A stretch of 64,000 bases of DNA from assembly GCA_025201345.1 (NCBI GenBank), contig JAIXMG010000017.1, positions 620,001 through 684,000 of the forward strand. The letters run 5' to 3'. The DNA comes from Thamnidium elegans. Lineage: Eukaryota; Mucoromycota; Mucoromycetes; Mucorales; Mucoraceae. Made by a program: the position numbers and the translations under genes. Below are positions 24,579 through 42,314 of the stretch, in pieces. How positions within the stretch are numbered: position 1 is the stretch's first letter; every line of letters starts with the position of its first letter. The notes beneath the pieces were generated by a model. That model was not told the origin of the DNA and searched no databases. It saw only the letters and a program-made list of their open reading frames with translations.

Positions 24579-27013
24579 TTACAAAGGTGAATGCATACCA
24601 AGCTAAGAAACAAAATAAAAAACAAAAGTGTTACTATTGAATGAAGGTAAAATAAATAAATAGTACATTACCTTTGTACTGAATTCAAGCTTAGATCTCT
24701 TTTGAAACCGTGTAAACTCCTTATTATCGTGCATCTTGACTAGTTCTTGTACAGGTATTAATACAATTGGCCACGCAAAAGCTAAAAAATACACAAACCA
24801 AGGAATTTTAGATAATTCAAATGGTCCATGAGCAAGCGAAACGGCACAGAAACAGAATTGCAAGATAACACTCAAAAAAAATGCACCAATCCAAATTTTA
24901 TTTCTAAAAGGTACAAATTCAATAAGTGATGATGTACGATGAAGGAAAGACGGTGATATACATGCTACACATTAAATATTAGTAATTAATTTTGGTTATT
25001 ATAATCGCATTAACATTCACTCACCAAGGTACCATACAAAGGATACTAACATGGCGTTTTGAGCATATGTTACAGCCCATTGCTCTTCCAATGTCCAATG
25101 ATACCACCCTTTCATTCCAAACCTACCAAAAGCTTCTGATATGTTAATACTCAACGAATAAATTAAAGTCCTAATAAAGAGAGATAAAAAAAAAAAATTA
25201 GTAATAAAGAATCTCGGATATATATACAATATAATAAATAATACGTACATAGAATAAATAGCGACAGACATAACAATGACTAAAATAAATCGAAGTATAA
25301 AATAACACATAAATCTCCAAAAATCAGTAAGGTGTTCAATATTCTTCCCAGGCATCAATAACATGATACCATCTTCGTGCGGGGTGAAAAGCATGGACAT
25401 GGATAAAATGGGTAAAATAATCCATAATATCCACAGAATTTGGTACCCCGTGAAAATAGGCGGTAATAATAAACAGAAACTTAACAGTAACATCAATGAC
25501 ATGGACATACAACCAGCAGCATAAAAAGAGAATCCCATACGAACACATCCCAATAATCTTCGCGCATCACGGATTAATTGTGTCACAGCATATAAACTTG
25601 TTTCGTATTGCATGAATAGCCCGCATGGTAAACTACATAAAGAAGCTCCCACAGCTAGAGGTGGTTGACGATCATTCGTAGATAAACGTCCTTTACTTTG
25701 AGCACGTGTATGCATAGGTTCCATGGCAATACTAACATCAGACTAGAATAAAGTATATTAGTATATAGAATATGTAATGAAATAAAAAAAAAATTCTCTG
25801 CCTTACCAATGCAAATGATTCAGTGTTTTTGGTATTTAATGCGTTACCAATACAACACACAACTTCACCATTTTCTTGAAAGATGCGAATCATCTCTTTC
25901 ATAGCACGTGGTGTACACTCTGCAAATAAAGATACATGTAATGGAATATCATCCACATCCTCCAAATGAGGTCTAATTTCATCGATACCGCGTGGTAATT
26001 GAGCCTTAATATCATGTGTTTGAAGGTATCCGTTCCCACAATTTTCATCATCAGGGTTAGATAATAAAATACAACTATTCCAGTCAGTTTCTAACCCAAG
26101 ACGTTCAGCAAAGGCCTTAGATTCCCTTTCAGCCGTTGTTGAAAAGTAAACAAATCGAATACCAGCAAGACCTAAATCCTCAATAAAATCAACTACATTT
26201 TGTTTGGGTTGATGACACATGGCAGTCATACCAAGGAAAATTTGGCCCTTGACTACTTCCTTGTAAAATGTTGCTTCTTCTTGTTCATTAACAGGTTCAT
26301 CATCCTCAAATGAGTAATCACTGGATCCAGTATCTGAGGATACAGTACCACTGGAAGGTAAAGTAGAAGTACGTTTACTGGAGCGTTCTACTTTGATTAT
26401 TTCGTTTGCTGGTCGTTTCCCATTTTGCTTATTTCTCGAAGATGCAGGAATGGATTCAGTCGAATCACTACTATCAGAGCTATCAGAGCTAGGTGGTTTA
26501 TAAGGTAAAACAACAAATGCACAACCAGGATCTTCATCTTCGTCATCGGAGGGGTTTAAAAACGGAATACGACCATCATTTACAGTGTTGATAGGGCGAT
26601 AAGCATAAGCAATACATTGCATATCATGCACAAGTGCATTTTGAAAGAAATCGTTAATTTTTTTTTCCATCTAAAAAAAAAAGTTAGTAGTTTTTTCTTG
26701 AGAAGTTAATATCATTCACTTACAGTTTCACTCATGGTTTGTAAAGAGTTGCCATCCCAATAATCAGAACATTTATCCATAACAAGCGAAGGATGACCGT
26801 CTGTAAGTAGCTGGTAGCTTCCAGAAGATCGCTCTTCAAAAACAGTAGATAGTGCATTAGGTACTTCAAATTGGTAATATTTACTGTATTTGAATCTAGG
26901 TGTATTCAAAATTTCGTGATATGGAGCAAATGTATATATCTCAGCTCTAAGCGCAAATGATTGTAACGCTTCTTCTCTAAATCCAACACATTTACCTAAC
27001 CTACAAAGGCACG

Positions 27014-27049
<36 letters not shown>

Positions 27050-29907
27050 TTTATTAATACCAAGAGTATTCCCTTTTTTTTTTTTTGTAGAAAAAAAAAA
27101 AAAACGAAGCATACTTACATTGTCTTGCTGGTGCTGTTTTACCATATACATGCAGCTTAGATCGTCTACGATGATATTCTGATCTTTTACGACTTTGAAT
27201 TACACCACAGTTTGTATTAAGCATAAAGTTTAAACCAAGAGGTTTTAAACATCTACAAATAGACATTTTAGTATCTAGTGTGGAGTTCTTTCGTTTTTTA
27301 ATTTACGGTAAATATTGTTCCCAATCTTGATCTTCGAATTTTAATCCAGTAGGTTCATCAGAGTCCTCTTCGACATCTAAATAGGTAATGTCTTCTTCGT
27401 TATTAGGAAACATTAATTGTTCTACTGTTGGAAAGGGCTACATAAAAAAGGTTAGTTTTTTTATTTTATTTTATAAAATTCCCTTTTTTTCGCTTACGTT
27501 TGCAATCGTTCCCTCTCTGTCTAAACAACAAATAACGGTTGTACTTCCAAGTGATTCCAATAAGTTTGTTGATCTTGTTAACGATAATCGATCCCACTTT
27601 GTTAATAAAGATAAAAATCTATCCCAAACAGCATCTAACAGAAAAAAAAATGTCGATTAGATAGACAAGTCTAAAAGCTCATTATAAAAATATTTACTTG
27701 GACTTAGTTCGAGATCTTTTGTAGGAGGAGGAGCTTCAGCATCGAATTCGTCTACTTCATCATCATCCTCATACTCTGTTTTAGATATTTGTAGAGCTTC
27801 AAACAGAATGAGTAGTTGTGCATTACCGAAACTTCTAGCAATGATCCACATGCTCGGTATACATAAAGGTAACAAGGGAATAATAGCGTAGATGGACATG
27901 GTAAATACTTCTTCTACTAGTTGGTCGACAGGAAAATGGTTGATCAGCGTACTATGAAGCCCATATCTCAAAAAATTAACGACTAGAGCAATACCGAGTA
28001 CAATCCAAATGATATATCGATAGAATATGCGAATAATGACATGACTTTCATTATACATGACAGTATCGGGTCGCTTTTGATTTAATGCTCTACGCATGTT
28101 TTTTTCTAATGGTGATTCTAATAAAACAAATTGATGTCTTCCTCTTGATCTCATATACTCTTCCATTAAACCAGAAGGTGGTGGAATTCCAAAGAAGGAC
28201 GGTTTAAATGTTTGGTCTTTAGCGATATAATATTCCTTTGTATTTAATGGTGGTTCACTTTTGCTAGAAGAATCACTGCTGCTAGATCCATGACGTTTTT
28301 TAGTTGATTCGTTTTCTTGATCTGTGTTAGAATGATGCGTTTTATGAATATATTTCATGCGTCCAGGAGCAATATCGCCATATAGCATTTCTACTATATC
28401 GCCTTCTACTAATAAATTAACGGGGAAAATACGCACAACACCATCACGCACAACTTTAGCTACAGACATGGAGGGTATAAACGGGATTTTTGTATCCTGT
28501 ACCATGTTCATTCCACTTCGTTCTAATGCACCAATAATAGTAGCAGCTCGATCTGTCATTTCTCTATAAGCCAACACTTGTTCTCGATAAAATATGTATC
28601 CATTCCATACTGTCATTGTTATTAATAAAATGGCTTCTACTAATAAACCTGTAATACGAAACTGGTACGGATTACTTTTGAAATATCCAACGATATAAAA
28701 TGATAGTAATGTTAAACCTGATAATGTACTGAGGAACATGGCAGGGTTAACAATAACCATACGAAAATCTATTAATTTAATATTAATATATATATATCTA
28801 CTTTGCACAACACATACGTATACGTATAAATTTACCAATGGTTTTATCTATTCTCGTTCTTTCTTCATCTAGAATGTGGTTGGCTAAATACAGCAATTTG
28901 CTAATACACACATAAAAAATTAATACGGATAGAATTGGAAATTTATACAGTTTTTTTTCTTTTTCTTTTTTGCTTTACCTCAGTGCTTCTTCGCTAGATA
29001 ATCCAGGATGCCTATTCGATTGTAAACTTTCTCTTCTACTCCAAGAATGAGATTGTAGATTGGATTGTAATACGCGTTGTGTTCTCTTGTGTAATCTACG
29101 TGGAATTGACCTTCTTCTAAATCGCTCATTTTCATCATGTCTATTATGTCGATAACTCCTTTCATTATGTCTCAACATACGTTCACGATCTCCTCGTGGC
29201 ATTTCATCTACTAAATCATCATCTTCTTCTGTATAAACTGTTACCATGGCTTTATTATCAGCTAGAAGATCTTTTCTTCGATGATGTCTGTGTCGACGTC
29301 TTCTCTCTTTATGTATCGAGCCTGGTTTACGAGAAATTTCTTCTTGTTCTAAATCATCGTCTCCGTCATTTTCTGCAGCGGATAAATCAGTTTCTTCAGG
29401 TTGAGAGTGAGTAGGTTCCATTAAATGAAGATGAGAAGGAGGTAACATGAGACGACTATTAGAAGCAGAATCTGCGTCTGATTCACGTCTACTACCAGGT
29501 GTATAACAAAATGCATAATCGCTTTCTGATTCGTCGTCTCCAGAACGTAATAAATGAGCGAAACCATTCTTTTCGAGACGACGAGGTATAGAACCACCGT
29601 GGTCAATAACTACTTGAGCAGAAACACTAGAACCTGAACTACTACTGCTGCTGCTGCTGCTGTGAGAGGAATCACTATTATTGTCATCACCACCTTCACT
29701 AGTTCGTTTGTTGCGGTGGTGATGTTTTGATTTTTTGGTAGTAGTAGTAGCAGTAGGTTCATTATTCACGTCTAATAAAAAAAAAGTCGTACCTTGGTCA
29801 TCGGTAACCGGTTCAACAGGTAATATATTTAATGGTGTTTCCGAATTAGTAGAAGTGACAGAATTATGCGAAGAACCAGAAACGGTACGTCGCATATCGT
29901 CAGCCAT
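24579..29907 (-). CDS. TMEM94-like P-type ATPase homologue with degenerate catalytic motif
   Basis: Long multi-exon membrane protein matching animal TMEM94 (reported as an ER magnesium uptake protein, ERMA). The start is MADDMRRTVSG at 29907; an in-frame extension to 30009 exists but adds an odd Phe-rich string. A long polar, Ser/Arg/Asp-rich N-terminal region comes first (29907-28980). Next is a first membrane pair (28760-28600: LSGLTLLSFYIVGYFK, AILLITMTVWNGYIFY), then an actuator-like part (VVRDGVVRIFPVNLLVEGDI, MLYGDIAPGR). The phosphorylation site equivalent is TVICCLDREGTIA (27540-27500), not DKTGT. The nucleotide-domain region includes CSDYWDGNSLQTMSETVSE, AYAYRPIN and LAGIRFVYFSTTAERESKAF; then AKLPRGIDEIRPHLE-type blocks and ECTPRAMKEMIRIFQENGEV. 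A C-terminal bundle of membrane segments follows, and the last short exon ends STK-LGMHSPL, as in TMEM94. All junctions I tested were in frame. Confidence 0.9.
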
Positions 29908-30501
29908 AATAATTAGTATTACGGAGAGTAAAAGATATACAGATTGTAACAACAACAAAAAAACAAAAAAAAACAAAAAAAAGAGACATGTAATAGTTCG
30001 GACAAACAAATAAGTAGAAACAATAAAGGACTAAATATTATTGGATAATAATATTTATAATACAAGAGTTAATTGAGATAATAAAATAGAATAATGTTTA
30101 TTTGTAAAGAGAGAGGAGAGTATTTATACTGAATAGTAACAATATTCCAGATCCCAAAAAGGAAATAAAAAAATGTTAGCTTTAAAATTCTCTACTACCG
30201 AAGTATTCAAACCGCATATGCGGCGAAGCACAACCTGGCGCACCACCGCTTTTAAGCGTGTGTTTTTCAGATGGCCAGGGGCGAAAAAGGTATTTATTGT
30301 TAACATTTAGAAAAAGGAGGAAAATTTTGTTTTAAATTTTTTTTTTTTTGTCATTGTGTGTGTCCAGTAGGAACCATTCCGATCATCAAGAGCATCAAAA
30401 GTATAACAAGGAAGCCTCTTACGTTCTTCTTCTTCGTGATGTTTTTTTTCGTTTTCTTTTACCCATTTTTAGTTAAAAATATGGATAATATATAAAAAAA
30501 A

Positions 30502-30683
30502 CGGTTTTCTTAGGGACCACCGCAAAAATTCTTTCGGATCACCGGTCTGTACATAGGGAAGCTTAGGATTTATACAAAAAAAAAAAGAAGCTTAGGATCG
30601 GGTAACCGGTGGTCCGAAAGCAGTATCCCTAAGTACACACCGGTGGTCCGAAAGAATTTTTGTGGTGGTCCCTAAGAAAACCG
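30502..30683. mobile_element. Foldback MITE with 45-bp terminal inverted repeats
   Basis: The left arm (30502-30546, starting cggttttcttagggaccacc) is the reverse complement of the right arm (30639-30683, ending ggtccctaagaaaaccg) with only two mismatches in 45. The centre carries a third partial copy of the inner arm (accggtggtccgaaag at 30605) and a duplicated word gaagcttaggat (30559 and 30588). Flanks are ataaaaaaaa and ataaaaaaa, which could be a 9-bp target duplication of the Mutator type, but such simple sequence is weak proof. There is no coding capacity. Confidence 0.88.
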
Positions 30684-31644
30684 ATAAAAAAACACGTCCT
30701 AAAAAAACCTAAGTTATTATTTATCATTTTATTTTATCTATCTTTGTGTTGTATGTATAAGCAAGTGTACCCTTTCCGAGGGAGGTACAAAATAGTTCAG
30801 TATTGCTAATGTGTGTTCTTTAACAAAACACTATGGCTAAATACCTTTAGTTTCTTTTTTTATGGCAATGTAATTAAACAGCATACAACACCAAGGCTTT
30901 TTTAACCCAGTTTGCTCATCAGTTTTTTTTTTTTTTTTTTTTTTAACAAAACCCCCTTGGAAAAACTGGATCTGATGGGTAAAAAAAAAAATTTGCTCTC
31001 ACGGATAACGAGATTTGGAATAAACAAAAAAATACTTCTTTTTACAGCTTTAAAATACAATAGTGATGAATAGAATATACGTAAAATAAAACAACAATAT
31101 AAGGAGTAAATTATGAGTTCAGTTTATTATAAAGTGCAAAAAAAAACAATATAGCTTATTACATATAAAATAAAAAGGGTTGATAGGTATATCAATAAAA
31201 AAATTAAACTGTCTTATAATATAAAGAAAGAAGTGATATATAAATTAAGAATGATAGATACAAATATAAATAAACAGGTCAAACTACATTCAAAACAATA
31301 ATAGATAAGCGAGGCAACAGTGTATTATAAAAAAAAAAAAAAAAAAAAAAAAAGATCGTATAAAACTAGTAAGTATAAGTTTGAATACATGTGTATAAAT
31401 AAAAGAAGCATTCTTACCATAATAATAGACACACAAATAGAAACCTAGTAAAATAGAGATAATGTTAATAGAGGTGATGACTACGGAAAATATTAAGCAA
31501 CCATACCACTTCTTATATATATCCTTGTATTAAACCGGTCAAAATATTAAATGGGTATAAAGCTTACACGGTGTCATTTTTTTACCCTCCCCCAGTTGGA
31601 CTTGCTAGATTAATTAAAATAAGAAATAAAGACTTTTATCTTTA

Positions 31645-31672
31645 TTTTTCCACGATAAATATCGTGGAAAAA
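31645..31672. repeat. Perfect 12-bp inverted repeat (hairpin)
   Basis: Arms tttttccacgat and atcgtggaaaaa flank a 4-base aaat spacer. It lies about 120 bases before the first readable exon of the Fanzor gene. It could be a terminator-like or regulatory hairpin, or part of the element carrying the gene. Confidence 0.8.
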
Positions 31673-31792
31673 ACATTCAAACCAGATTGATAGCTTACAT
31701 CATTATCAATGACTAATGTAAAATATACAAACTAAACAATAAAGTAAAAGCCTTTATATAAATTGGATATGATGTAAAAGACACTAATATAG

Positions 31793-34654
31793 TTTATTCT
31801 AAATTGAAAGAGCCATTCAAAATCTACAAAGTAATTACGTGTATAAGGTAACTATCGAATATAAAAAACATCTAACACAATGTTATATCTAGCAACTTTT
31901 TCGAACTACTGCAGAGGAATTCACAATATTAATAACAAGAGATGCTATGCATTTTGTTACTTTTCTTGTGCGTAATTGGGTAGCTTCAGGCTAAAATCTT
32001 GCTAATTTCCCTAATATTACTACGCCAATTTTATGGACTCACTCATATAGGCTGATGGCTATACGAATAATCTAAATTCTAGAATCAGAGTAAGTTTTAC
32101 TTGTTATTGTTATAGGTCACATACAAACTATAAACTATATATTTACTTTTATTTAATAGCCCGCACCTCTTTTAACGCAATCATTGATACGGTTTAATAT
32201 TTTTTGGGTTGACCCTAATACGAAAGGTAAATTTCACAGCTTCCGGTGTATTATAAAAGCTGACTACTTCTAACTATTAACTATTAACTAGAAAATTTAT
32301 ATGATATATCTATCCTTGACGATCTACATATTCTCTATTGCCGCGACTTATACGACAACAATGATATAAAGTAAAGTATATAGTTATTTAACATGAATTT
32401 TGATCAGATCTAAATAATAAATATATCTGTTAACTAGATGTTATTGTACATTTATCTCGCAATGTAAAATATATCTTAAAAAAAGTTTTCAGAGGTTTTT
32501 ACTTGGACTACAAACACGAAAAAAATCATAAAAAAATTAATCAGGATAAGCTTAGTAAGTACCTATACGTACTATTGACGCGTATGAAGCATTTGCATTA
32601 ACACATCTATACATCATTAAAGATAGCATTTCTTGCAATTGACAGTACTACACAAAATAAAAGTGCAGACGATATCATTAAGTATATCAAAGAGAAAGAA
32701 GAAGAAGTAGATAACTTAGTTATCGAATTATTCAAGTAAGTGATTAATATTTTTTTTTTTATATTACGAAAACCCATGTTTCAATAACTTATTTTATTAT
32801 ATTCAGCAAATTCCAAAAAATATACAAAGAATGCTTTACTTTAAATAACAATATCTTATCCTTTGATGATCTTTGTGATTATGACACAATCAAGAAAAAT
32901 AACTACTCTGCGCTTTTCGTGAAATTCAGTTGTAGAATGTTAGGTTTTGTTGATCATTTTAACATAGAAAAAATCAAAAAGATAGAACATACTCCCTATG
33001 CACAGTCATTCCGTTGGTAATATATCAGTTATACATATGATAGCACAACCATTATTTATAATTATTTTTATATTATAATAAATTTCCCATTAAGTGGTAC
33101 TACTTCTATTTACCATCTATTCAAAAAGGCCCATAGCTTAGGTTACCCTGTTCCGGACTCATTGTATCTAGATGAATCAAAAGTAACATTAAATAATATT
33201 AGCTGGAAAATTATTTCTACTAAAAACATATATATATATTGTATTACATAATAGACATCTTTAAAAGGAGTTCGTTCTTTCGATGACAACATTTATTTTG
33301 GAGAAAACGAAAGTAAATTGTGGGAATCTTTTTTCAAGTTAAATTGTGTACCAAAAAAGAGGAAAAAAAACACGCCTAGTAAGATATTCATAATTATGAT
33401 TCACTTTTTCTTAGAACTGATAATTTTTGGTTTCGCAATAAACTACGTACTTGATAAACTCAATGACATTTTTTTCGATTGTGGCTTCATGACCCATGGA
33501 CATATGATCGCGACACATTTTTATGCTTTCAGAAGAGGTACTTTAACGTTGTTTAAATCGCTTTTTATACAAACTACTTATTTGAACCGAAATATATAGA
33601 ATTGTTATCTTCCGATAAAAACGAAATTAAAGTATTAAAAAGAAACGCAAATTTGTCTTCTATGAATAAAGGGGTATATACGTTTGATAAAGAACCTACT
33701 GGACTTTCTCTTTCGGAAAAGGATGCAGTGAGAATTGATCCCGGTAAGTCTTTGGCCCCTTGATAAATATATGTATAATTTACTCCAGTCTTTATACTTA
33801 GGAGTGAGGGATTTGATAATGGGAGTGCGATCTTCAGATAGTACGAAATCTTTTAGCATATCAAACAAAACATATAGGTAACCGATATAACTATACATAT
33901 GAATATATATGTATATATTGTACTAAAATAACTCATCCTTATTTGAAAAGCTTACAGAGTGGCGTAGAAAAGTCGAGCTGAAAAATAGAGAGGATGGTAA
34001 CATACAACAAACATACAATCTATTAAAAGGTTTAAAGACTGCAAATCTACAAGAATATTTCATGTACTTAATATCTGTAACATCTACGCATAAAAGTAAA
34101 TATTATTGATATTAAACATTAAACAATATGACATTTAATTTTTTTTTATGATGCATAGGGTTTTTTATTTCATGTCTCATTTTAGACATAGAGAAACGAA
34201 GGGGTATTTGTATTCAAATAGAAAAATGGCTTTAGACTACATCTCAAACGTTGTAGCAAATCAAACTTGTAGTAATGAACCCTTTTCTTTAACCCGCCGT
34301 TCAACAAAGGTTAAAAGAAGAAAAAGGAGGAAGAGGTTTAGAGCTAAGCAGCCCTTTATCCCGTCCGAAAAGCGGTCAATCATATCTTATGGAAATGCTA
34401 GCTTACAAGGTACTACGAAAACGTATACCCCTGTCCCAGTGAAGGTAATAATGAATTATATGATGTATATACCTCTTTATAACTTTTTTTTATATCAATA
34501 AATAGAAGACTATAACCGCAATTTCAAGGAGATCATTAGTTATACTGGTAGATAAATTCCGGACATCTGTAACTTGTTCAAGGTGCCACAGCACTTCGGA
34601 AAAGAAATATAGACGGTAAGTCTACTTATTTTTTGACAGTTCCAGACACTAATT

Positions 34655-34716
<62 letters not shown>

Positions 34717-35005
34717 GCAGACAAAAAGAAGGCGAAGAACATTACAAATATTTAAGTACGTCTAACTCCCCTAATAATTATTTACATGTACTAATATCAT
34801 TTAACGCATAGTATACCGTTTAAAAGTTTTCCCAACTTGTTTAGATGGTAAAAAGATTTGGCACAGAGACGTAAACGCTGCCATAAACAATGAAGGTATC
34901 ATGATGGACTATATCAATTCTCAATATGATATTAAATCGAGACATCCGTCACTATACCGCGGTACACCACCAGCTGTAATTATAACTACAGCCACCAGCT
35001 CCTAG
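31793..35005 (+). CDS. Fanzor (TnpB-like RNA-guided nuclease family), multi-exon
   Basis: Eukaryotic relatives of IS200/605 TnpB; several Fanzors are proven RNA-guided DNA nucleases. Readable exons: 31793-31830, 31893-31979, about 32043-32091, 32159-32225, 32290-32368, then (after less certain small exons) to 32735, 32807-33016, 33095-33182, 33255-33378, 33415-33537, 33600-33743, 33802-33877, about 33958-34097, 34159-34444, 34506-34615, 34721-34755, 34812-35005. The family motif D...[TS][TS]xx(zinc finger)...RD is met: RuvC-I aspartate in DAVRIDPG-VRDLIMGVR, FRTSVTCSRC, and IWHRDVNAAINNEGIMMDYI. Odd points: VDKFRTS has Lys where relatives have Glu; the second zinc pair is reduced to TCLDG; and exon 33958-34097 does not fit the phase of its neighbours by GT-AG splicing. 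It is either slightly decayed or has sequence errors. The start exon was not found. Confidence 0.82.
34652..34715. repeat. Poly-T tract of about 63 bases
   Basis: Long thymine run directly upstream of the ggcag acceptor of a Fanzor intron. It may act as an extended polypyrimidine tract; its length is probably variable or imprecise in the assembly. Confidence 0.9.
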
Positions 35006-36145
35006 TCGAGCCTAATTGGAATATCTTTCTATGTTTTTTTTGAAGTGTTTTAGGATTGTCCGCTTACTTAACATTCAAAAATAAAAAGGGTTTAACATGC
35101 GTAATGATTGTTTTTTACCGCTGAAATACATATATAAAATATGTGCTGTATATCAATGATATCACTTGATGTAGTGCAATATATATATATATATATATAG
35201 GTACGCACCCGAGGGTTCAACATAAATTATAACGTCTTTTTTATTTCAAATTTAACCAAACAAGTGATAGTTAGTGCGTAGATCTTTTATATTTTTAGTA
35301 ATAGTAGTGGTTACAACGCAATACGATAAGCACAGAATGAGGGCTAGACTTAATTATAAAAGGTCTGAAAGCGTAAAAGAGACACAAAACTCGGCTTCCA
35401 GTTGCGATGTCGTACTAAAAGTCAATTTTTACGTGTGTTTATTATAGGTTGTCAACTTGGAGAAAAAGTCTATTTTCGGCACTTAATATACATTCTGTAT
35501 TGCAATAAGAACTGGCTTTTGTGCCTGATAAAAAAAAAGGAATCTGGAACCAAACGAGTTTTTGAGAAATACAAGATTATCGGTGCATAAATTCATATAT
35601 AATATAGTTATGAACTTCTAAACTATCTTTTTTACATACGAAATTGACATTTCCTTGATTAATACACGGATATTAGCATTAAGTATGAAGCTTGCTAATT
35701 AATTACGGAAAAGAAAATGAAAGGGAAGATATTTATACTTTCAGGTACGATTTATCCTGCTGTCGATTGCTGACATATAGCAAAAAAAAAAAAAAAAAAA
35801 AAAAAGTCGGGCTTTTAGCCATAATCTAATATTTGCATGTAAAGACTGAAACAGCGTAACAGTATTTTATTCCCCGCCCATTACAAGATGAAATACCTTT
35901 ACAAAAAAAAAAAAAAAAAAGGCCATCCTATCCATTTGAAAGTTGTTATACTTTCTTTTTTTAATAAAGATCACGTGTAGTATTCAAAATAGGTCAAGCA
36001 CAAGTAGTACCACTGTAATAAGTAATCTTATCTTTTCTTCTTTTTTACTCCTTACTACGTGACTATTTGTTTCCCGGGGCAAATTTTAATATTTTTTCCC
36101 TTTTTCTTTTTTCATATATTTTTTTTCTTTTTTCTGAATCAGTAC

Positions 36146-36176
<31 letters not shown>

Positions 36177-36190
36177 GAATTCGTTTTTCA
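35006..36190. other. Intergenic between Fanzor and Zds genes
   Basis: No gene seen. A (TA)n run lies at 35180-35200, and poly-A runs at 35781-35804, 35903-35920 and 36147-36173. A 62-codon open frame at 35402-35590 has no recognisable features. The last 120 bases are pyrimidine-rich promoter-like sequence for the Zds gene. Confidence 0.45.
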
Positions 36191-37975
36191 ATGGATGAGA
36201 CATTAAAAGCAGATCGACAATATCCAGATTATGACATGTACGCAGCGTTAATATTGTCTAACCTGTTGGATAATGAACAAGATGTAAAAGACCAAAAAGT
36301 GCAACTAGAACGACAACAAATGGAAGGAAAAGTACAAGAACCAACAATACAAGAAGAAGAAGAAGAAGAAGAAGAAGAAGATACAAATGATGTTATATGG
36401 TAATAATATATAATGTGTAATTAAATAAATAACTAGTGATTAATGTGATTATTCTAATAGGGTTCCTGCTGATAAACATCCTCAAATAGCACCAACTGAA
36501 TTTGCTAATTTTATAAAAACTCATGGGACTAAATCACCTATTAAAAGTGGTCGATTAGACCGTAGAAAATCGATATTATCACAATCTTTATCAGTGAAAA
36601 ATACACAACAACAACGACCACAACAGCAACAAGAAGAAGAAGATGATGATGATGATGAAGAAGCAGATTTAAATCGAACACTTTCAGAAAAAAAGAGAAA
36701 TTTCTTAAAGAAAGTAATGACCGATAACGTAAATTTAAAAGGTAAGCAATGTTACATTTTTACGAAAAAAAAAAAAAACACGAGTTCTAAAATATAATAT
36801 AAAAAAAAAAAGAAGCAGCAAATATATTTGATCGTAATTCGCCTTCAGTTGATGAATCACTTATTATTGCACCAAAATCAGATAAATCTTTACTTAGACG
36901 ATCAGCATTTTCTGCAAGAGGTAGAAGTAGAAAAACAGAAGACGGACAACAAATGAAGAGACGCTCTGTTTCACAAAGAAAACCAAGTAGTGAGAATATT
37001 AAGAATGAATCATGGGACAAGAAATCTGGCATAGATTTATTTGATCAACCAGTAAATATGAGTGAATGGATTGATTTAGGTAGTGTAAGTTTAGAGTCTG
37101 ATAATTCTCAGAGAGGTATCATTTCTCGTGTGCATGATGCGGAGTCACAACTTCGATCTACAACAACGACTGCACAGGATCAAACAGTAAAAGATGTTAT
37201 ACCGAAACAAGTATTAGTCATTGTGAAAGAAGAACCAAAGCGTCCAAGTATGATTCGATCGCCGACTGAAACAACAACCACCGGTGTGGTTACAACGACA
37301 AAGCCAGAAAAGAGATCGTCGTGGTTAAGTGGATTATTTCAACCTAATAATAATAATAATGTTCATAAAAAACCAATCAATAACAATACGTCATCACTAT
37401 CTAGTTTAGCAACATTATTTACTCGTTCATTATCGATGAAATCTAATTTATCTAATATATCAAACAATCATAACACTAAGGCATCAACAATTCATATAAC
37501 AAATAATAATAATAATACATCAATACCTCCACCACCACCACAACAACAAGAAAATAAAAAATCCAGCAGGCTGGAAGAACGTACTTTTTTTAATTCAAAC
37601 AGGTTACCACTTCATGTTGAAAGAGCAATTTATAGATTATCACATATGAAATTAGCTGACCCAAGAAGACCACTACAACAGCAAGTATTAATATCGAATT
37701 TAATGTTTTGGTATTTATCAATTCAACAAAATGATTTTCAACAAGAAAAGGTACCACTAGTAACACAACCTACTAATAATACTCAACAACAACAACAACA
37801 AACTAAAAAAATTGGTAACAAAATGTCTAGATTAATTTATTCTGCTAAAAAAAGAAAAAACGATTCAAAAAAATCAACCAATAATAATGTACAGTTTAGT
37901 TTAACACCTACACCAAGTCATCATCAACAACAATTTGAAGAAGATGATGTCCCTTTAAGTCATTACCAAACTTAA
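36191..37975 (+). CDS. Zds-domain protein (Zds1/Zds2-like)
   Basis: Exons 36191-36399, 36461-36741 and 36813-37975 join in frame to 550 residues. The N-terminal part has the conserved WVPADKHPQIAPTEFANFIK stretch of Zds proteins. The middle is low complexity, with acidic (EEEEEEEEED), Gln, Asn and Thr runs. Near the C terminus is the Zds_C block: LPLHVERAIYRLSHMKLADP then RRPLQQQVLISNLMFWYLSI. In yeast, Zds1/2 bind the PP2A regulatory subunit Cdc55 and steer mitotic entry and exit, polarity and stress signalling. A basic segment (KMSRLIYSAKKRKNDSKKS) follows the domain. Directly downstream, 119 bases away on the same strand, is a PPZ-type phosphatase gene. Confidence 0.85.
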
Positions 37976-38094
37976 AAATAAAACCGGACATTGAAAAACT
38001 ATTGTAATTTCTTTTCGTTTTTTTTTTCTATTTAGTTCTTTTTCTCTTTTATATACATAATACACATATATATACATTTGTTTTCTAAACTAAT

Positions 38095-39621
38095 ATGGGA
38101 AATAATGTATCAACTAAAAAAGGCTTAAAAAAAGAAAAAAAGAGAAAAAGTGCGCCCATAACACCTCGTATTGAAATTGATAATGAAAATTCAAATAACA
38201 CTGCTCACTCTGTAAATTCCATTTTATTGACTTCAAAAAATAACAATAATAATAATACCATGGATACACTAGCTCAGTTAAATCCAGACTATCCGTTGCC
38301 AAGCAATAACGAAAAAAATGACCCATTTCAAGGAAAAGTAGAAAATCCTCAACAACATAAATTGTTAGCTACATCAGATTTTTGGCCTCCTCAAGAACCT
38401 AATAATAGCGAAGACAATAATAATCAACTTACTGTTGGTTCCATAAATCAACTTACTGTAAATTCTATTTCAAGTGATTATTCATCTACTACAAATATAG
38501 ATGACTATATTCAAAGATTATTAGAAGCAGGTTATGCTTCAAAAGTATCAAAACAATTATGCTTAAAGCCTTCTGAAGTGACAGCTATCTGTCGAGCTGC
38601 TATGGATATATTTCTAAGTCAACCTGTATTGTAATATGTCAATGGTTCCAAATAGAAATAATTGTACTAAACCTAAACCTAATTTTATCCTAGTCCTTAT
38701 TAGAACTTTCTCCACCTGTCAAGGTTGTTGGTGATACTCATGGTCAATATACTGATTTAATTCGTCTATTTGAAATGGGTGGGTTTCCTCCTAGTTCAAA
38801 TTATCTGTTTTTAGGTGATTATGTTGATCGCGGTAAACAAAGCTTAGAAAATATCTTGCTACTATTCTGCTACAAGATTAAATACCCAGAGAATTTTTTC
38901 TTATTAAGAGGTAACCACGAGTGCGCCAATGTAACAAAAGGTGAGTTTATAAATAATTTTAATATTACAGTTACTAATATCGTATATCCAGTATATGGCT
39001 TTTATGATGAATGTAAACGTAGACTTAGCCCTAAAATGTGGAGAACTTTTGTTGATGTATTTAACACTTTACCTATCGCTGCTTTAGTTGCAGGTAAAAT
39101 ATTTTGTGTTCATGGCGGTTTGTCTCCTTCTTTACAAAATATGGATGAAATTCGTAGTATTCAAAGACCAACCGATGTGCCTGATTATGGCTTATTAAAT
39201 GATTTATTATGGTCTGATCCCGCTGATGTTGAAGATTGGGAAGATAATGAAAGAGGTGTATCTTATGTATTTGGTAAAAAAGTTATCAATGAATTTTTGT
39301 CAAAATTTGATTTGGATCTAGTTTGTCGAGCACACATGGTAATTACTATTTTCCCTGGGGGGGGTTTTTTTTTATTTATTCAGTTAAAGTAACACAAAAC
39401 AATCTCATATTTAATAGGTTGTAGAAGATGGATACGAATTCTTTGCTGATAGATCTCTTGTTACTGTATTTTCTGCTCCTAATTATTGTGGTGAATTCGA
39501 TAATTTTGGCGCTATTATGAGTGTAAATGAAGAATTATTATGTAGTTTTGAATTATTGACTCCTGCTGATCATCCGTTAGCAAAAGAAAGACTTCGACAA
39601 AATAAAAACAATAAAAATTAA
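38095..39621 (+). CDS. Ser/Thr protein phosphatase, PPZ type
   Basis: Exons 38095-38625, 38694-38940, 38992-39338 and 39418-39621 join in frame to 442 residues. The N-terminal 130 residues are Asn/Ser/Lys-rich and begin MGNNVSTKK, a likely N-myristoylation site as in yeast Ppz1. The catalytic domain starts [20 protein letters not shown] and has every metallophosphatase motif: [21 protein letters not shown], then [38 protein letters not shown]. The wording [19 protein letters not shown] is typical of PPZ rather than PP1. GDTHGQY has Thr where most relatives have Val or Ile (GDxHG is intact). In yeast Ppz1 controls K+ uptake, salt tolerance and cell-wall signalling and is inhibited by Hal3, which is not in this window. 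Confidence 0.92.
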
Positions 39622-39866
39622 AAAAAAAATTGATTACGTCACAACTTGGAGTAAAAATTCCTTTTTTCTCTCTTGGTTTTAATAAGCTCTTGGAGCGGGG
39701 GAACATGGGTTGTGTAAGTTGAATTTTAATCCAATTATATTTTTTTATTTTTTAAGCTGGTCCTGTTTATCACTAAAAAGTAATATTTATTTTTTCTGCC
39801 CCCTTCTCTTTTTTTTTTCTTTTTTTCGCAACTTAAACCCCCCACTCCAAAACATATTAATTCAAC

Positions 39867-42314
39867 ATGTTGCGCGTCATTAACAAGACTAGCGTAGCAG
39901 CACGTACAGCTCAACAAGCCATTCTTAAAACTGGCGGTAAAAAGAAAAAAAAACATAGACCCCGTCCTTTTGTTTATTTACTTTTATTTTTTTGTTACTA
40001 TAGTACGTGCATTTGCTGCATCGACTCATGTCAAAGAAGAAGTCGAAGTTTTCATTGACGGTAAATCTGTCATGGTTGAGCAAGGTTCTACCGTCATTCA
40101 AGCTTGCGAAAAGGCTGGTGCTGATGTAAATATATATAAAATACTTTTTTTTTTCTTTTCGTAGTGATTTAACAATATTTCAATTAAATTAGATTCCTCG
40201 TTTTTGTTATCATGGTACAGCATAAAATACACACACACACACACACACATACACACACAAAATACAACTTCAATTATACTCACCATTATTTTTATTTTTT
40301 TTAAAAAAAAAACCAATTATTATATATAGAACGTCTTGCAGTTGCTGGTAACTGTCGTATGTGTCTTGTTGAAGTAGAACGTGCACCTAAGCCAGTTGCT
40401 TCTTGTGCTTACCCTGTCATGCCTGGTATGAAAGTCAAGACTGACAGTCCTTTAGTTCATAAGGCCCGTGAAGGCGTTATGGAATTTTTACTTTACAACC
40501 ATCCTTTAGATTGTCCAATTTGTGATCAAGGTGGTGAATGTGATTTACAAGATCAAAGTATGCGTTACGGTTCTGACCGTGGTAGATTTTCTGAACCTAT
40601 GGGTAAACGTTCTGTCGAAGACAAGAACTTTGGTCCTCTTATTAACACTGAAATGACTCGTTGTATTCAATGTACTCGTTGTGTTCGTTTTGCTAACGAT
40701 ATTGCTGGTGCTACTGAGTTAGGTACCAGTGGAAGAGGTAATGAGATGCAAATTTCAACTTATATTGAAAAGACTATCGACTCCGAAATGTCTGGTAACG
40801 TCATTGATCTTTGTCCCGTTGGTGCCTTAACTTCAAAGCCTTACAATATGAAGGCCAGACCTTGGGAATTAAAGAAATATGAGACTATTGATGTATCTGA
40901 TGCTATTGGTTCCAACATTCGTCTTGATACTCGTGGTGTTGAAGTTATGCGTATTCTTCCTCGTTTGAATGAAGATGTCAATGAAGAATGGATTTCTGAT
41001 AAAACTCGTTTCTTCTATGATGGTCTCAAGGTACAACGCTTAACCACTCCTTTAATCCGTGATGGTGATCGTTTCGTTCCTTCTTCTTGGGAAGCTGCTC
41101 TTAAGCGTGTTGGTCATGAATTAGCTAATACCCAAGGTAATGCTGCCAAGGCTGTTGCTGGTCATCTTGCTGATGCCGAATCTATGGTTGCCCTTAAGGA
41201 TCTTTTCAACCGTTTAGGTTCTGACAATTTAGCTATTGATGCTCCTAATGGTTCTAAGCCTCTTGCTATTAATGCTGATTTCCGTGCTAATTATACTTTG
41301 AATTCTACTATTGCTGGTGCTGAGGAAGCTGATGTTGTCTTGTTGGTTGGTACTAACCCTCGTCATGAAGCTCCCATCTTAAACACACGTCTTCGTAAGG
41401 CTTATGTTCATAAGGGTCAAGACCTTGGTTTAATTGGTCAAGCTGATGACTTAAACTATGAATACGCTCATATTGGTGAAAGCTCCAAGGACATTGAAAA
41501 GATTTTGGATGGTTCTCATCCTTTCTCTAAGCGTCTTGCTGAAGCCAAGAAGCCTATGATCATTGTTGGTTCTAGTGTTATTGAAAACTCCAAGGATAGT
41601 GAATATTTATTATCCAAGGTTGCTGAATTATCAGAGAAATTCAACAAAACTTTATTCCAAGATGGATGGAACGGTATGAATATTTTACAACGTGCTGCTA
41701 GTAGAACCGCCGCTTATGAAGTTGGTTTTGTTCCTACTAGTACTGAAGCTTCTTCTACACCCGTTAAGTTCTTGTATCTTTTGAACGCTGATGAAGTTTC
41801 TGCTTCTGATATCCCCAAGGATGCTTTCGTTGTTTATCAAGGACATCATGGTGATGTTGGTGCACAATATGCCGATGTTATTTTGCCTGGTTCTGCTTTC
41901 ACTGAAAAGAATGCTACTTATGTTAATACTGAAGGTCGTACTCAAATTACTCGTGCTGGTGTTAACCCTCCTGCTGCTGCTCGTGAAGATTGGAAGATTA
42001 TTCGTGCTTTATCCGAAGTTACTGGTCATACCCTCCCCTATGATGATCTTTCTTCAGTTCGTTCTCGTCTTTCCGATATCAGTCCTGCATTGACTCGCTA
42101 CGATGTTATTGAACAACCTTCCATTACTCAACTTGGTTTAGCCACCCAACGTAAATCTAATGTTACCAGTACTGGTGAAGTCTTGTCCTCTGTCATCAAG
42201 AACTTCTATCGTACTGATCCCATCTCTCGTGCTTCCAGTACTATGGCCAAGTGTACCAAGGCTTGGGTTGCTGGTAAAGATGTTGAAGCTGAACTTGATA
42301 GTGTAGCTGCTTAG
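39867..42314 (+). CDS. Complex I 75-78 kDa Fe-S subunit (NDUFS1/nuo-78)
   Basis: Largest subunit of mitochondrial NADH:ubiquinone oxidoreductase, carrying three Fe-S clusters of the electron input arm. Exons 39867-39936, 40004-40125, 40193-40214 (22 nt) and 40330-42314 join in frame to 732 residues, the family size. The N terminus (MLRVINKTSVAARTAQQAIL) is a mitochondrial presequence. Cluster ligands visible: IPRFCYHE, GNCRMCLVEVE (2Fe-2S), HPLDCPICDQGGECDLQD, and RCIQCTRCVRF with VIDLCPVGALTSKP (4Fe-4S). The molybdopterin-oxidoreductase-like fold follows. Introns cluster in the first 500 bases, and the rest is one highly expressed-looking exon with strongly biased codon choice. It shows that this fungus has respiratory complex I. 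Confidence 0.96.
40229..40257. repeat. (CA)n microsatellite in an intron
   Basis: About a dozen AC/CA units in the third intron of the complex I subunit gene. Confidence 0.9.

Follow-up and report, generated by a model that had tools for sequence, protein, structure and literature searches.

The Fanzor locus studied here is a 5'-truncated, broken and likely inactive copy, and its family has likely spread through the Thamnidium elegans genome as cargo of MULE-type transposons. The window, meaning the whole stretch of 64,000 nucleotides that we analyzed (G000:C9:620001-684000), belongs to a genome of 34.1 Mb in 64 contigs. A preliminary description of its letters had proposed a multi-exon gene for a eukaryotic TnpB-type RNA-guided nuclease at 31793-35005. 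The exon chain with RIDPG, FRTSVTC and HRDVNAA on which that proposal was built is present in the translation, and profile searches bore out the family. Its stop codon was placed correctly, but the repeat that holds the chain runs from 31803 to 35061.

Family assignment and homologues

The joined exon translation, with X at the breaks, matched the TNB domain PF07282 with 33.6 bits (cut-off 26.3), and among the PDB structures it matched SpuFz1 (E = 4.4e-4). A profile built from four relatives matched SpuFz1 (E = 0.003) and PpFz1 of Parasitella parasitica, a genus of the Mucorales (E = 0.018). With a wider profile of 47 rows, the SpuFz1 match was weaker (E = 0.032) and an unrelated cytochrome scored better (E = 0.0036). 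SpuFz1 and PpFz1 were the Fanzors matched among solved structures, and both are Fanzor1. By sequence similarity, we assign the window protein family to Fanzor; the membership of the window copy itself is based on family homology, as its motif is not intact. AlphaFold models of the homologue P0002 had pLDDT values of 35.9 (4 sequences) and 49.7 (47 sequences) and were too poor for use, so the RuvC fold of the family is a prediction from sequence.

Part of the window copy has been annotated as a gene. The public protein P0001 (BDF21DRAFT_423619, 210 aa) is 100% identical to the query over 61% of its length, corresponds to a frame that is open, with splicing, over 34148-35005, and matched PF07282 with 31.8 bits. 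The homologue search gave a set of 80 hits, 34 of which were aligned in A2 and 47 in A3. An earlier protein search had given five hits. One of these, P0004, was left out of alignment A1 because it resembles a gene model joined across MULE and Fanzor parts: this T. elegans protein (INT48_004711) joins a MULE N-terminal module to a Fanzor zinc ribbon and RuvC-III. It is probably a gene model drawn over a deletion derivative, and would be of interest if truly an expressed fusion.

Scans of the window for Rfam families (gathering threshold) and tRNAs gave no matches. Inverted repeats in window positions 26000-42000 numbered 368 pairs, and the 25 longest were poly-A/T pairs plus one unrelated near-palindrome. 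A MITE-like near-palindromic repeat with 58-nt arms (93%) lies at 30502-30683; it also adjoins a Fanzor fragment in L036.

The window copy belongs to a dispersed repeat

The search of the genome with its own protein gave 78 exon-level matches. Beyond the poly-T run, 14 of the 17 other loci compared have DNA in common with the window copy; L016 and L037 share none with it, and L021 matches in the poly-T only. Because of this common DNA and the identity with P0001, the exon chain is not a chance arrangement. The alignments of L018, L023, L025 and L032 all begin exactly at window position 31803, and the shared right end, GTTTTAGGAYTGYCC, occupies 35047-35061 (Table 1). In L023, L032 and sister copy D, a start exon with an ATG and the basic stretch KNKRKK lies left of the position equivalent to 31803. 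The left part of L023, used as a query against the window, recovered no start exon there; its two matches, 28 and 45 bases long, lie elsewhere. From this we conclude that the window copy is truncated at its 5' end.

Table 1 Features of the window copy (window coordinates)
Feature	Position	Strand	Basis
5'-truncated copy of a Fanzor-carrying MULE-type element	31803..35061	+	DNA similarity, 14 of 17 other loci
Remnants of the Fanzor N-terminal half, start exon missing	31803..33742	+	Translation; exon boundaries predicted
RuvC-I exon; RIDPG Asp codon 33737-33739	33557..33743	+	Aligned to IDPNKRD of SpuFz1
Exon VRDLIMGVRSSDSTKSFSISNKTY	33802..33877	+	Translation, sister copies; splice sites predicted
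Exon EWRRKVELKNRE..., with window-private deletions of 10 bp (after 33963) and 1 bp (near 34091)	33957..34095	+	Five sister copies
Exon HFRHRETKGY...SYGNASLQG	34160..34444	+	Translation, sister copies, homologue alignment
Exon with VDKFRTSVTCSRC; catalytic Glu to Lys, codon 34554-34556; first zinc Cys pair 34575-34586	34506..34615	+	
Run of 60 T within an intron; about ten T in sister copies	34656..34715	+	
Short exon QKEGEEHYKYL	34722..34753	+	Translation, P0001; splice sites predicted
Last exon: second zinc pair CxxC to FxxC (Phe codon 34829-34831)	34812..35005	+	
Last exon: HRDVNAA (Asp 34868-34870), stop 35003-35005	34812..35005	+	
Right end, candidate omega-RNA region; 16-nt deletion near 35033	35006..35061	+	Putative RNA role
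Flank directly 3' of the right end; putative guide site of an intact copy	35062..35085	+	

By reading, sister copy D has stops in the start exon and a 12-nt gap over TSVTC, E has a stop before HRD, F a changed zinc Cys, G a changed RD Asp and H a large gap; E and G keep all four zinc Cys. None of the family copies compared is intact, and none of them combines a complete Fanzor with both ends. PF07282 also hit 21 further places in the genome, 19 of them over the cut-off and with open frames of up to 270 aa, none of which is the window copy. Eight of these loci (L001-L008) were compared with window positions 29001-38000 and have no DNA in common with them.

Lesions and neutral decay

The preliminary description had called the exons almost all in frame. 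The chain is there, but set against the five sister copies (D, E, F, G and H) it bears the 10-bp and 1-bp deletions, and there is a break near 33555. This break (within 33539-33600) is common to the window, D and E, and is either an unplaced intron or a defect that predates the spread of the family. Relative to the sister copies, the 16 nt missing from the right end include one arm of the terminal hairpin.

A G-to-A change at 34554 turned VDEFRTS into VDKFRTS. The RuvC active site of the window copy is Asp-Lys-Asp and not the Asp-Glu-Asp that had been named as support for a nuclease. At the Glu column, 30 of the 34 aligned proteins have a residue; 29 have Glu, and Lys occurs only in P0001, the window's own protein. 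The first and last catalytic Asp vary in some relatives (Asp in 16 of 20 and 23 of 26, respectively). The family Glu of VDEFRTS aligns with the SpuFz1 Glu in LLDEYKTS, and E541 is named in the SpuFz1 catalytic site (PMC10432273); we read the two, from the alignment, as the same residue. The third zinc Cys is Phe in the window copy, a change that is not unique, as the copy on C17 (P0070) has it likewise. Of the Bao-Jurka motif D-X(125-275)-[TS][TS]-X-X-[C4 zinc finger]-X(5-50)-RD, the window copy has the D, the TS about 190 residues on (hand count) and the RD, and keeps three of the four zinc Cys.

Differences at codon positions 1/2/3 were 19/15/15 between the window copy and D, 23/16/15 between the window copy and E, and 15/14/16 between D and E. 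We take these as the clean pairs because the rows of F, G and H contain some misaligned letters at truncated ends. The largest third-position share over 12 pairs was 30 of 74 (D and F), and 16 of the 19 window-private substitutions are nonsynonymous. The lack of a third-position excess points to neutral decay and thus to a pseudogene. Together with the truncation, the frameshifts, the Glu-to-Lys change and the damaged right end, this pattern tells against the working nuclease that had been proposed. The window copy is an ordinary transposon pseudogene, predicted to be inactive.

The left end of the family links it to MULE elements

An intact left end, 5'-CGATTTACTTATTTCC, is found in three elements, A (C27:313k), B (C27:36k) and C (C17:231k); in each, an ORF separates it from the Fanzor start. 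The same left end and ORF occur at C34:810k (L053) and C64:528k (L054), where they continue into a MULE catalytic region. L054, with two frames set together with X, matched PF10551 with 37.1 bits (cut-off 27.6); a single frame of L053, taken by itself, stayed under this cut-off with 18.4 bits. Distant homologues of the left ORF adjoin MULE matches at C23:413k, C23:1k and C3:570k. From the catalytic regions of L053 and L054 and these neighboring matches, we conclude that the left ORF is a homologue of the N-terminal portion of MULE transposases. Pieces of it gave only sub-threshold matches in Pfam, the best to WRKY. Of the transposase, nothing beyond this N-terminal homologue is left in the Fanzor copies that have a left end.

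A genome-wide MULE search found none within the window; its closest match on the contig, C9:613218, lies to the left of it. For transposases of the MULE type, this agrees with the earlier observation that no transposase is adjacent. The observation carries no weight for the idea of a stand-alone or domesticated copy, because the left end of the window copy is lost and the copies that keep theirs carry part of a MULE transposase.

MULE target duplications are 8-11 bp long, and MULEs usually have terminal inverted repeats. Element A is flanked by the duplication TGTTTTTA (8 bp, or 9 counting the preceding C) and element C by GTTTCAAT (8 bp). Copy B has no target duplication, and none was found in the flanking DNA examined for L053 and L054. 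Eight bases left of L052 recur once, inside L052 itself, and we did not count them as a target duplication. By eye, the left CGATTTACTTATTTCC and right GTTTTAGGACTGYCC ends are not inverted copies of each other, i.e., terminal inverted repeats are absent.

The locus G000:C7:517k (L037/L055) holds another Fanzor lineage (P0051), which keeps the Glu and is 33% identical where it matches. This related element carries its Fanzor inside a MULE remnant flanked by the 11-bp repeat TTCGAGTAAAT, and its left flank also has GTGAC. Other left ends, CGATTTACTTATTTCGCC or a close variant followed by TTCGAATAA or TTCGAATAG, occur at L081, L082, L084 and L086, which perhaps represent a further MULE-like family.

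TGAC precedes many insertions

We compared the left flanks of nine of the 12 elements with the left module; L049, D and C64:262k were left out, as they have no left terminus. TGAC stands at -15 to -12, exactly 11 bp from the element, in five of the nine flanks (A, B, C, L053 and L055). L057 has CGAC in place of TGAC, and the position lacks the motif in the remaining three (L052, L054 and L058). Five identical 4-mers in one column of the last 40 bases occurred in none of 5000 first-order Markov control sets, and the 5-mer GTGAC, present in four of the nine flanks, was equalled by 1 of 5000. The motif was picked after the flanks had been seen, and the control covers any word in any column of the 40-base stretch.

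TGAC lies directly 5' of a duplication of up to 11 bp; we did not see it at the right end of either A or C. Because it also precedes the MULE element L053, the motif most likely reflects the transposase. Its position is also where a Fanzor TAM would be expected, and TGAC may serve as one. In SpuFz1 elements, a conserved CA upstream of the left end matches the start of the CATA TAM (PMC10432273).

Right end and deletion derivatives

A pattern search for the right end allowing up to three mismatches found 37 places, against 26 for a reversed control. Ten of the 12 places with at most two mismatches are at loci with Fanzor matches, the window copy included. At C11:538k (L079), the family right-end sequence stands with no listed Fanzor match nearby, and this locus is perhaps a further ghost derivative; the match at C18:416k looks like chance. 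None of the 37 places is at the MULE elements C34:810k and C64:528k or at C45:672k, which argues against a simple one-transposase picture.

The predicted right-end hairpin was more stable than the mean of letter shuffles in copies C (-27.5 vs -19.2) and E (-27.7 vs -17.9), and no better than shuffles in D (-15.0 vs -14.3). Covariation support was not seen by eye, since the hairpin arms seem to be either conserved letter for letter or disrupted by mismatches.

A, B and L049 have lost the RuvC region as far as the first zinc pair; left-module sequence is retained in them, and so are the last exon and the right end. Their breakpoints are nearly the same (32019-32021 and 34692-34708). As B and L049 have the same junction letters in different flanks, the deletion derivative has likely itself spread. 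These derivatives resemble the ghost loci of Spizellomyces, which are described as omega-RNA loci without the protein (PMC10432273).

Explanation and alternatives

In an intact element of this family, the MULE transposase, probably acting in trans, would recognize the ends and place the element immediately 3' of a TGAC-type motif. The right end could then be transcribed into a guide RNA, with the flanking DNA as the guide. The Fanzor would cut the empty site, where TGAC stands directly 5' of the guide-matching sequence, and repair from a sister copy after the cut would retain the element. The window copy is most likely capable of none of these steps. A bolder version, which we consider possible and on balance improbable, holds that a MULE had its catalytic half replaced by an RNA-guided nuclease and that the TGAC insertion motif is the Fanzor TAM, so that every insertion would automatically come with a guide directing the cut to its own empty site. 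If true, this would be a eukaryotic self-homing system on a DDE transposon and not on an HUH transposase or a serine recombinase.

It is unlikely that the Fanzor elements were moved by some other machinery and that the MULE piece is a captured passenger and not the driver, although terminal inverted repeats are missing by eye, the right end does not occur at the MULE elements, the target duplications are 8-9 bp here as against 11 bp in the related element, and unclassified Mucor Fanzor elements lacking terminal inverted repeats are among those described by Bao and Jurka (PMC3627910). Not only the ORF but the left terminus itself is common to elements that encode a MULE catalytic domain, and other Fanzor1 elements of Mucorales are described as appearing to be MuDr, with 9-bp target duplications (PMC3627910); both observations favor the MULE as driver. 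We reject the view that the window holds a stand-alone or domesticated gene, kept by the host as an RNA-guided nuclease, and give it next to no credence. The Fanzor motifs, the many introns, the lack of a MULE match in the window and the partial annotation as P0001 would suit such a gene. It would nevertheless have to function with its start exon missing, two private frame-breaking deletions, a lost catalytic Glu, a zinc Cys replaced by Phe and no third-position excess. Its introns, which had been taken as a sign of long residence in the host genome, recur as the same intron-like stretches in dispersed sister copies; they are therefore element-borne and uninformative on domestication.

Two further proposals would leave some function to the broken copy. 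As a ghost locus, it would have a dead protein and a right end that still supplies guide RNA to other Fanzors. Omega-RNA loci without protein are described in Spizellomyces (PMC10432273), and the derivatives A, B and L049 keep their right ends, but the window copy has lost 16 nt of its own, one hairpin arm included, and there is no intact Fanzor of the family among the copies compared for it to serve; we regard this as very unlikely. Still less probable, and in our view extremely so, is a separate role for the 210-aa C-terminal fragment P0001, such as regulation through binding to the right-end RNA: its frame is open with splicing and is annotated, yet the fragment lacks the catalytic Glu and one zinc Cys, and the private substitutions are mostly nonsynonymous.

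We thus favor a decayed copy of a Fanzor likely carried by MULE-type elements. A multi-exon fungal Fanzor need not be domesticated, since introns can be the element's own. Should TGAC both mark the site of MULE insertion and be required by the Fanzor as TAM, the nuclease would serve a DDE transposon for retention or homing, and the reason for the pick-up of Fanzors by DNA transposons would become directly testable in this family.

Comparison with known systems

In the one literature library searched, we found no report of a Fanzor in Thamnidium and, by title, nothing on Fanzor together with MULE. One genome study, T. elegans included, lists MuLE among the transposons of all the Mucorales that it sequenced (PMC7928374). 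The homologues from Rhizopus, Choanephora and Helicostylum (P0002-P0080) belong by sequence to the same protein family, and many have DxG, VDEFRTS and RDxNAA. By eye, many of them also have a zinc-ribbon insertion of some tens of residues, which is lacking in the T. elegans family of the window.

PpFz1 is a Fanzor1 from Mucorales, as the T. elegans family putatively is, and its weak profile match covers IDEFRTS and RuvC-III; it also has a cyclophilin-binding FRI domain (PMC11423790). The likeness to SpuFz1 comprises the D-E-D triad in family relatives, the TNB zinc ribbon, multi-copy elements, deletion derivatives that keep their ends and a conserved motif preceding the left end. According to PMC10432273, the genes in SpuFz1 elements are full length and the elements carry inverted repeats of 30 nt, unlike the T. 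elegans copies; the SpuFz1 Glu stands against Lys in the window copy. A guide RNA and a TAM (CATA) have been shown for SpuFz1 (PMC10432273), whereas in the T. elegans family both are putative.

The closest parallel on the element side is already known: MuDr-type Fanzor1 elements of Mucorales, in the description of PMC3627910. ROr-4, PBl-3 and MCi-4, from Rhizopus, Phycomyces and Mucor, appear to be MuDr and are described there as lacking a transposase and as having terminal inverted repeats and 9-bp target duplications. They share with the T. elegans family the Mucorales hosts, the Fanzor protein, the MULE/MuDr link without a complete transposase and a similar duplication length. As far as our searches go, the T. 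elegans family is new, as are its retained transposase module and its TGAC insertion motif. Compared with the elements as described in PMC3627910, it has no terminal inverted repeats that we could see, keeps an N-terminal portion of the transposase ahead of the Fanzor gene, and has TGAC at many of its insertion sites.
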